Shown here: positions 35,216 to 36,478 of the stretch, piece after piece
Numbering within the stretch: the stretch's first letter is position 1
Layout: each line of letters starts with the position of its first letter
Virus record (IMG/VR): IMGVR_UViG_3300024502_000027
Location: 1 to 36,630 of that record
From: a virus
Length of the DNA: 36,630 nt
Direction: 5' to 3' (one strand)
Position numbers and translations under genes: made by a program
The notes under the pieces: generated by a model
Databases searched by the model: none
What the model saw: only the letters and a program-made list of their open reading frames with translations
Told to the model about the DNA's origin: nothing

Positions 35216-35495
35216 GAGATTGTTGTCAGCAGTCGTCAGTCTTGCGGTACGAGATTCCTGCCAAACACCAGGCAAAAAGATGCTGAATCAAATACCAAGG
35301 GATGCGCTAGATTTTTTGTTTAACCACAGCGACGGGTACTTAGAGTTGTTAGATTTTGACCCAGAACAATTTCGCAAGAAATTGGTGTCGGTAATGTATA
35401 CGAAGAATCCAAACCCACCTTATAGTCTTTCACAAGCGGATTGCAGGAATCTACGAATCAATTATCAGATGTGGTGCAATGAAAATAGACTATAA
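35193..35495 (+). CDS. Conserved small protein of the ninB module (copy 2)
   Basis: 100 residues, homologous along its length to the protein at 532-831 (LLDFDPEQFRKKLVSVMY, DCRNLRINYQMWCNE). GAGGAG precedes the ATG inside ninB. Its last codons diverge from copy 1 where the methyltransferase cassette begins, ending ENRL instead of EQG. Confidence 0.7.
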   Translation: MDQAVACKRLLSAVVSLAVRDSCQTPGKKMLNQIPRDALDFLFNHSDGYLELLDFDPEQFRKKLVSVMYTKNPNPPYSLSQADCRNLRINYQMWCNENRL

Positions 35496-35589
35496 ATTAT
35501 TTGGCTTGAGGGAACCCGATTTAGGCGAAACACCGCTAAGTTGGGAAGAGGTTTTAGTGTGGTTGAGGATTAGGAGGAACGATGAATGA
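35479..35589 (+). CDS. Small ORF leading into the methyltransferase (36 aa)
   Basis: An ATG overlapping the end of the previous gene opens MKIDYKLFGLREPDLGETPL followed by SWEEVLVWLRIRRNDE. The final codons contain the AGGAGG that serves the methyltransferase. The peptide is present only in the Dcm-bearing copy of the module. Its length and position fit a leader or small regulatory protein; otherwise unknown. Confidence 0.45.
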   Translation: MKIDYKLFGLREPDLGETPLSWEEVLVWLRIRRNDE

Positions 35590-36478
35590 GTTGGCTCTTT
35601 TCGCAGGCGCTGGTGGAGGAATACTTGGGGGACACTTGCTTGGATGGCGAACCGTCTGTGCAGTTGAATGGGAACCCTACGCAGCTTGCATACTTGCCGC
35701 AAGACAAAATGACGGACTTCTCCCGAGTTTCCCGATTTGGGATGACGTTCAGACCTTTGACGGCAGACCGTGGCGAGGAATTGTTGACGTCATATCTGGA
35801 GGATTTCCATGCCAAGACATCTCCGCAGCCGGAAAGGGCGCAGGAATTGACGGAGAGCGATCAGGAATGTGGCGAGAAATGGCAAGGATCATTCACGAAG
35901 TACGACCAAGATTCGTGTTCGTGGAAAACTCACCAATGCTCACTTCTCGGGGGCTTGGAACCGTTCTTGGAGACTTGGCCGCGATGGGGTTTGATGCGCG
36001 GTGGGGAGTGCTGGGAGCAGCAGATGTTGGCGCACCACACCAACGCGACCGAATTTGGATCAGAGCCAACGTTGCCAACACCAACAGCAAGCATGATGCC
36101 ATGCGAGGGTACGGTCAGAATGATGCGGAAACAATGGTTAGACGGAGAGTTTACATTGGAGGAAGCGTCAGCAATAGCGGGCCGAGATGTGAGGAAGGCT
36201 CAAGGAAAAGTTGCAATGTGGCCGACACCAGTGAAATCGGATTCCCAAGCCCGCAGACCGAGCAAGGGCTGGAAAGGGGACTCGGATTTGCCATCGGTAG
36301 TTTGGCAAGTGGATGGTGGGATAGAGAACCCGGAGAAACCCCCCGCACAGTTGAACGCGGATTGGGTCGAATGGTTAATGGGGTGGCCGCTAGGGTGGAC
36401 AGACTTAAAGCCATTGGAAACGGACAAGTACCACTTGTGGCTGCAACAGCATGGGAAGATCTAGGTGACCAAAGATGA
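35582..36478 (+). CDS. C5 cytosine DNA methyltransferase
   Basis: A 298-residue Dcm-type enzyme that methylates cytosine C5 in DNA. Motif I is LALFAGAGG at 4-12, motif IV GGFPCQDIS with catalytic C77, motif VI ENSP at 115-118, motif VIII QRDRIWI at 154-160, and motif X GNGQVPLVAA near 279-288. The target-recognition region (about 165-270) is short. No restriction enzyme is next to it, so it probably protects phage DNA against host restriction. The ATG is only 4 bases after AGGAGG. A 292-codon second frame lies entirely within it. Confidence 0.9.
   Translation: MNELALFAGAGGGILGGHLLGWRTVCAVEWEPYAACILAARQNDGLLPSFPIWDDVQTFDGRPWRGIVDVISGGFPCQDISAAGKGAGIDGERSGMWREMARIIHEVRPRFVFVENSPMLTSRGLGTVLGDLAAMGFDARWGVLGAADVGAPHQRDRIWIRANVANTNSKHDAMRGYGQNDAETMVRRRVYIGGSVSNSGPRCEEGSRKSCNVADTSEIGFPSPQTEQGLERGLGFAIGSLASGWWDREPGETPRTVERGLGRMVNGVAARVDRLKAIGNGQVPLVAATAWEDLGDQR
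35586..36464 (+). CDS. Overprinted +1-frame ORF inside the C5 methyltransferase (292 aa)
   Basis: The ORF starts at an ATG 4 bases downstream of the methyltransferase ATG and stops 14 bases before its end. AGGAGG (35572-35577) is 8 bases from this ATG, better spacing than for the methyltransferase. The product is Trp-rich, beginning MSWLFSQALVEEYLGDTCLD, with SCSWKTHQCSLLGGLEPF, ETWPRWGLMRGGECW, paired WPTP/LPTP motifs, and a C-terminal LNADWVEWLMGWPLGWTDLK. I recall database proteins with the same MSW start and WVEWLMGWP ending, but these could be translations of the same overlap in other phages. No catalytic motif recognised. Confidence 0.55.
   Translation: MSWLFSQALVEEYLGDTCLDGEPSVQLNGNPTQLAYLPQDKMTDFSRVSRFGMTFRPLTADRGEELLTSYLEDFHAKTSPQPERAQELTESDQECGEKWQGSFTKYDQDSCSWKTHQCSLLGGLEPFLETWPRWGLMRGGECWEQQMLAHHTNATEFGSEPTLPTPTASMMPCEGTVRMMRKQWLDGEFTLEEASAIAGRDVRKAQGKVAMWPTPVKSDSQARRPSKGWKGDSDLPSVVWQVDGGIENPEKPPAQLNADWVEWLMGWPLGWTDLKPLETDKYHLWLQQHGKI

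Follow-up and report, generated by a model that had tools for sequence, protein, structure and literature searches.

C5 cytosine DNA methyltransferases fold as a large domain and a small domain (PMC3404938), and the split between the two domains is a workable place at which to cut these enzymes (PMC5944983). Two-polypeptide C5 enzymes have precedent, including an arrangement in which motif IX alone is located on the small polypeptide (PMC3404938). In the case of M.EcoHK31I, the large polypeptide contains motifs I to VIII, motif X, and the predicted TRD, and motif IX is located on the smaller polypeptide (PMC3404938). M.AquI is a natural C5 split between catalytic and recognition parts (PMC3404938), with motifs I to VIII separated from the TRD and motifs IX and X. 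In single-chain C5 methyltransferases, such as M.HhaI and Dcm, the motifs are found in one polypeptide. Multispecific phage C5 methyltransferases of the Bacillus phage SPbeta type are also single chains, and they carry tandem TRD units in a variable region. As for the genes of M.EcoHK31I, we take the small polypeptide to be encoded in an overlapping alternative frame.

Here, we analyzed a virus record of 36,630 bases (the window, meaning the whole stretch of DNA that was studied) and focused on two overlapping reading frames, which we call alpha and beta. The results described below indicate that this locus very probably encodes a C5 methyltransferase that is built from two polypeptides, as M.EcoHK31I is, and in which alpha would be the catalytic large domain and beta would be the target-recognition small domain.

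Results

Two nearly co-extensive reading frames

All features described here are on the plus strand of the window. Alpha (35582 to 36478) encodes 298 amino acids and matches PF00145 (E value of 6.7e-32) and phrog_363 (E value of 2e-68); its motifs, I to VIII and X, are those of a putative C5 methyltransferase catalytic subunit. Beta (35586 to 36464) lies in the +1 frame and encodes 292 amino acids. It matches phrog_1008, which is labeled DNA methyltransferase (E value of 5.1e-27), and its putative TRD modules and motif IX suggest a specificity subunit; that it is a gene is supported by stop counts and purifying selection (see below). An earlier note on this DNA had reported the two frames, and their coordinates and lengths were exactly as it claimed. 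The overlap is nearly complete, with 292 beta codons versus 298 in alpha. The genes located 5' of alpha include those for an HNH endonuclease, a replication initiation protein, and a NinB-like recombination protein. The gene that follows beta matches phrog_1588, and it starts immediately 3' of the beta stop codon.

The +1 frame is open in all relatives

Related loci were gathered with a beta query and, separately, with an alpha query. This yielded 122 distinct methylase genes, 117 of which had a beta start near the alpha start, and 108 non-redundant pairs were kept. There were no +1 stop codons between the ends of alpha in the 108 relatives, compared to 508 expected from within-gene shuffling of synonymous codons, and the other alternative frame contained about 17 stops per gene in these same relatives. 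Stops in the +1 frame of homologous methylases had been named in the earlier note as a result that would speak against a hidden gene, and none were found. Beta was also open in 75 of the 75 relatives that were retrieved by alpha alone; hence, the open frame was not an artefact of searching with a beta query.

Similar results were obtained with the window gene itself. Synonymous shuffling produced a mean of 5.3 +1 stops and never produced zero stops in 200 shuffles, and drawing codons from the phage's own usage produced 8.3 +1 stops and never produced zero in 5000 draws. We also fitted a single-frame codon model to alpha residues 8 to 160 of 107 genes and simulated evolution from the window sequence. 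In 20 such simulations, only 1 to 4 of the 107 genes stayed open, versus the observed 107 of 107. As controls, we used 71 HhaI-type viral methylases that were fetched with M.HhaI. Each had at least three +1 stops (mean of 18), and the +1 frame was open over no more than 41% of the length; these controls were on average lower in G+C, and the 25 with at least 45% G+C had a mean of 11.8 stops.

Both frames are under selection

Substitutions that were silent in alpha and altered beta were suppressed; the earlier note had proposed an overlap-aware test for such a reduction. Specifically, the SN/SS ratio was 0.33, versus 0.90 to 1.62 in eight simulations, and the NN/NS ratio was 0.71, versus 0.90 to 1.28 in eight simulations. 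The NN/SN ratio for alpha was 0.21. At fourfold-degenerate third positions of conserved residues, the mean entropy was 0.92 bits, versus 1.34 to 1.52 bits in simulated data. Because the SN/SS ratio and the fourfold-site entropy were both below the simulated values, beta is under constraint even across the catalytic motifs, though less so than alpha.

In the 3' part of the locus, beta is the dominant frame, since the most variable alpha codon position in alpha residues 201 to 280 was position 1, which corresponds to beta position 3. In the 27 codons of the motif IX/X overlap, the rate of beta-sparing changes was 0.299, that of alpha-sparing changes was 0.139, and that of changes altering both frames was 0.047. 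Over the PTP modules (683 pairs), identity was 73% for beta, 39% for alpha, and 41% for the third frame, and beta codon positions 1, 2, and 3 differed by 0.22, 0.19, and 0.53, respectively. Grouping of the modules relied on beta similarity and so favors beta identity, and the unbiased codon-position pattern in alpha residues 201 to 280 agrees with these values. The overlap is genuinely dual-coding, and both frames are selected. Thus, the overprinted gene pair proposed in the earlier note proved to be real, with support from stop counts, simulations, controls, and selection.

Start signals of alpha and beta

The 3' end of the AGGAGG Shine-Dalgarno sequence (35572 to 35577) is separated by 4 nt from the alpha start and by 8 nt from the beta start, which is the spacing that had originally been pointed out. 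A TGA in the beta frame (35583 to 35585) is located immediately 5' of the beta ATG and fixes the beta start; it was present in 83 of the 83 relatives in which the two starts are likewise 4 nt apart. In these 83 relatives, the beta start codon was always ATG, the alpha start codon was ATG in 51, GTG in 23, and TTG in 9, and the median Shine-Dalgarno spacing was 8 nt for beta and 4 nt for alpha. Translation of the upstream region revealed a 36-codon open reading frame (MKIDYKLFGLREPDLGETPLSWEEVLVWLRIRRNDE, 35479 to 35589) that was absent from the list of open reading frames, and its TGA overlaps the beta ATG as ATGA. This overlap raises the possibility of translational coupling to beta. The conserved ATG, the preceding in-frame TGA, the Shine-Dalgarno spacing, and the ATGA overlap favor initiation of beta that would be independent of alpha.

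These data bear on the idea that the +1 frame is open simply as a consequence of base composition and of the conservation of the methylase, and that beta is untranslated. All 80 of the bacterial-genome matches to beta overlapped a methylase, and alpha conservation partly carries the +1 similarity, as this idea would predict. However, this idea is contradicted by the stop statistics, the simulation, and the HhaI-type controls, and it does not account for the beta-like pattern of variation among codon positions across the TRD and motifs IX/X or for a conserved ATG and a conserved Shine-Dalgarno spacing. Given the stop statistics, simulations, controls, codon-position pattern, and conserved start signals, we rejected an artefactual origin of the frame and consider its probability negligible.

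The C5 methyltransferase motifs are partitioned between alpha and beta

Alpha contains the C5 cytosine DNA methyltransferase motif set I, IV (PCQ), VI (EN), VIII, and X. Motif I (LALFAGAGGGI, 35591 to 35623), motif VI (FVFVENSPM, 35912 to 35938), and motif VIII (GAPHQRDRIWI, 36029 to 36061) were identified in the sequence, and motif IV (DVISGGFPCQDIS, 35786 to 35824), with the catalytic Pro-Cys, was aligned to M.HhaI. Motif X (beginning VAARVDRLKAIGNGQVP, 36383 to 36445) overlaps the 3' half of beta motif IX. When an alpha profile was aligned to M.HhaI, the alignment covered alpha residues 3 to 166 only, which corresponds to motifs I to VIII. The alpha frame contained neither motif IX nor a recognizable TRD. 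It had been claimed that the methyltransferase frame has all key motifs, and this claim must be corrected: the two missing elements were located in beta and not on the polypeptide that carries the catalytic motifs. AlphaFold models of both chains were poor (pLDDT of 60 and 54).

Beta contains PTP-type TRD modules followed by LNADWVEWLMGWPLGW (motif IX). In the window, module 1 (beginning LPTPTASMMPCEGTV, 36072 to 36218) belongs to a recurrent cluster of 13 modules whose positions vary, and module 2 (beginning WPTPVKSDSQARRPSKGW, 36219 to 36350) belongs to a recurrent cluster of 18. Putative motif IX (QLNADWVEWLMGWPLGWTDL, 36348 to 36407) is a weak match to M.HhaI, and its counterpart precedes motif X in a single frame of Gordonia phages. 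The best local hhalign alignment of the beta profile with M.HhaI was to HhaI residues 270 to 289 (KTRKLHPRECARVMGYPDSY, HhaI motif IX), with an E value of 0.35 that is not significant alone. No family matches to beta were found in Pfam or NCBIfam, sequence searches of solved structures with beta, the beta profile, and a split-beta profile returned no C5 match, and a Foldseek search of the PDB with the beta model, which was of low confidence, returned no match. The architectures of related genes provide a stronger argument for the identity of beta than the direct motif IX match.

Single-chain and split relatives

Gordonia phage Lennon and its relatives (L345 to L348, L350, and L352) have motifs I to VIII, LPTP modules, L(N/S)AAFAEWMM, and GNGV (motif X) in one frame; LNAAFAEWMM is the Gordonia-phage form of motif IX. 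The alpha profile aligned with the Lennon N terminus (E value of 4e-23), and the beta profile aligned over the region of the LPTP modules and LNAAFAEWMM with a moderate E value of 0.008. In the mycobacteriophages Shida (gp6/gp5), Shygu2 (gp77/gp76), and Dorothy (gp71/gp72), alpha stops after motif VIII, and a +1 frame that overlaps the end of alpha holds the LPTP modules and motifs IX and X. L249 (Paraburkholderia) and L254 (Spirochaetia) have the same split of motifs I to VIII versus TRD, IX, and X, with a beta start near the alpha start, and the window beta is homologous to both (E values of 2e-38 and 2e-32, respectively). In the window type, motif X is in alpha and motif IX is in beta, on overlapping nucleotides. 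This partition of motifs in single-chain and split relatives indicates that alpha is equivalent to the large C5 methyltransferase domain and that the small domain is represented by the C-terminal half of beta.

The earlier note had suggested a search for homologues of the hidden protein that are encoded without an overlapping methylase. For full-length beta there were none among the 80 bacterial-genome matches, which, taken literally, is an outcome that the note had listed against a hidden gene, but the TRD/motif IX module does occur free of any overprinting, in the single-frame methylases of the Gordonia phages.

The split relatives also bear on programmed frameshifting, in which ribosomes that initiate on alpha would move into the beta frame downstream of motif VIII and produce one chain with motifs I to VIII, the TRD, and motif IX. 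A single shift would complete the enzyme in Shida, Shygu2, Dorothy, L249, and L254, where alpha ends after motif VIII. In the window, however, motif X is again encoded by alpha, and two shifts would be required. Furthermore, the ATG that beta has in 83 of 83 relatives, the in-frame stop just before it, and its better-spaced Shine-Dalgarno sequence would be needless for a frameshift product. We consider frameshifting quite unlikely.

Two other observations were made in phages with C5 methylases. An annotated HNH endonuclease open reading frame with a LAGLIDADG-like stretch is located in the +1 frame within the single-chain C5-methylase frame of Gordonia phage Lennon (L340, 1145 to 1612), and the methylase frame remains open through this insert. 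In addition, Klebsiella phage OU509537 (L342) and Escherichia phage Bas78 (L344), whose methylases belong to another C5 subfamily, have +1 open reading frames of 310 and 223 codons that end in GQLNPAHSRWLQGYPPEW and ADFARQLMGYPQEW, respectively, and the overlap arrangement may extend beyond the alpha/beta family.

TRD modules are exchanged between betas

PTP units were found in 167 of 174 betas, with 1 to 5 units in each. The 295 modules formed 23 recurrent clusters of at least three members, plus smaller groups and singletons, and the positions of related modules differed between betas. Among 120 pairs of betas with N termini that were more than 80% identical, 95 had no module in common. For example, the beta N terminus of L016 is 92% identical to that of the window, and the two betas share no modules. 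Conversely, similarity between modules exceeded that between the backbones carrying them by as much as 35 points. Hence, backbone and modules are partly uncoupled, and the swapping fits what would be expected of an exchangeable specificity element.

It could be argued that beta has an accessory function of its own, for example as an inhibitor, an anti-restriction protein, or a regulator of the methylase, and that it overlaps alpha by chance. The N-terminal half of beta resembles no portion of a C5 methyltransferase and no known protein outside the overlap; this half overprints motifs I to VIII, is constrained, and has no counterpart in single-chain relatives. The C-terminal half, in contrast, is the TRD/motif IX region that is missing from alpha and that is located upstream of motif X in single-chain and split relatives, and module swapping fits a specificity element. 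We judge an accessory role very improbable. An inhibitor was rejected as a candidate on the grounds that the C-terminal half of beta supplies the TRD and motif IX and that the modules swap. Thus, of the partner roles that had been proposed for beta, a specificity partner gained support from the TRD and motif IX in beta and from module swapping, and an inhibitor or anti-restriction role did not, since the C-terminal half of beta is the region that alpha does not have. By all evidence here, the hidden frame would be the other half of the enzyme and not an accessory protein.

Distribution and annotation

The arrangement is common to hundreds of related phages and prophages. The 80 bacterial-genome matches to beta came from Pseudomonadota, Verrucomicrobiota, Spirochaetota, and others, and each overlapped its methylase in the same relative frame. 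Matches were also found on plasmids (two of Leptospira and one of Acinetobacter) and in named phages of Acinetobacter, Salmonella, Pseudomonas, Vibrio, Microcystis, Synechococcus, Stenotrophomonas, and Mycobacterium; some of the plasmid and phage matches cover part of beta only. In Acidovorax phage Alfacinha1 (L176, 909 to 2042), the annotated cytosine-specific methyltransferase gp46 is the hidden frame, and the real methylase frame lies alongside, unannotated.

Some loci were irregular. L012 (MW202674, 1497 to 1832) retains no more than the initial 30 codons of alpha and beta, followed by unrelated sequence; its beta is 90% identical to that of the window, and it appears to be a remnant or a recombination junction. 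In Mycobacterium phage Seabastian (L014, 832 to 1591), a frameshift breaks the methylase, and the annotated gp75 and gp76 together make up one alpha. Five bacterial loci (L196, L198, L206, L217, and L219) have an in-frame stop in alpha and an intact beta, which counts against the reading of the pair as two halves of one enzyme; these stops may reflect decay, sequencing error, or some other arrangement.

We found no description of the overlap in phage methyltransferases in open-licence papers. The passages retrieved from papers on Edwardsiella, Burkholderia, and mycobacteriophage Tweety do not report an overlapping methylase.

Discussion

The dual coding of this locus, the selection on both frames, the partition of the C5 motifs, and the exchange of modules were established here. 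Together with the architectures of the relatives, they suggest how a two-subunit enzyme might work. Alpha would provide AdoMet binding and catalysis through motifs I to VIII, and its C terminus would add the motif X helix. The small domain would come from the C-terminal half of beta, in which at least one TRD module with a PTP head precedes motif IX. One Shine-Dalgarno sequence would serve both starts, which are 4 nt apart, and the choice made by the ribosome would yield both subunits from one message. The two chains would then combine into a single active enzyme, with beta selecting the sites at which phage DNA is methylated, and the most likely purpose of this methylation would be evasion of host restriction.

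It seems probable that the locus represents an extensive class of C5 methyltransferases in phages and prophages. In this class, two frames of the same DNA would encode the catalytic and specificity subunits, motifs IX and X would share nucleotides, and specificity would evolve by swaps of TRD cassettes in dual-coded DNA; such a class is not so described in the open-licence literature that we searched. Annotation pipelines keep one of the two frames, and the other is lost or given the wrong label, as in Alfacinha1. If alpha needs beta, then many of the C5 methyltransferases annotated in phages are half enzymes, and their activity or target would be missed if they were cloned without the overlap. 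The locus also offers a testable case of two enzyme halves that evolve on the same nucleotides, with cassette exchange in a dual-coded region.

Of the known systems, M.EcoHK31I resembles the window locus by its published description: a large subunit with motifs I to VIII and X that does not have motif IX, and a second polypeptide with motif IX. In the window, motif IX was assigned to beta by its position and sequence in single-chain and split relatives, the direct HhaI match being weak. The two systems differ in the location of the TRD. The predicted TRD of M.EcoHK31I is on its large polypeptide (PMC3404938), whereas the recognizable TRD modules of the window are in beta, and alpha identity over the modules (39%) was no higher than that of the third frame (41%). 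They also differ in that the window beta spans almost all of alpha. The M.AquI partition is present in Shida, Shygu2, Dorothy, L249, and L254, but in the window, motif X stays in alpha instead of joining motif IX on the small subunit, and the overlap is nearly complete. Single-chain enzymes, including M.HhaI, Dcm, and that of Gordonia phage Lennon, have the same motifs overall, whereas the window has two polypeptides in two frames; the Lennon-type enzymes even have the same LPTP modules and motif IX, but in a single frame. The SPbeta-type enzymes are likewise phage-borne with tandem TRD units, and the window modules are in a second frame instead. As in other overprinted viral gene pairs, the window frames overlap in the +1 register on the same strand and both are selected, but on this evidence the window products would be two halves of one enzyme, with motifs IX and X stacked on the same nucleotides. 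Within the known two-subunit C5 kind, this locus stands out by an unusually complete overlap, a wide distribution, and the exchange of cassettes in dual-coded DNA.
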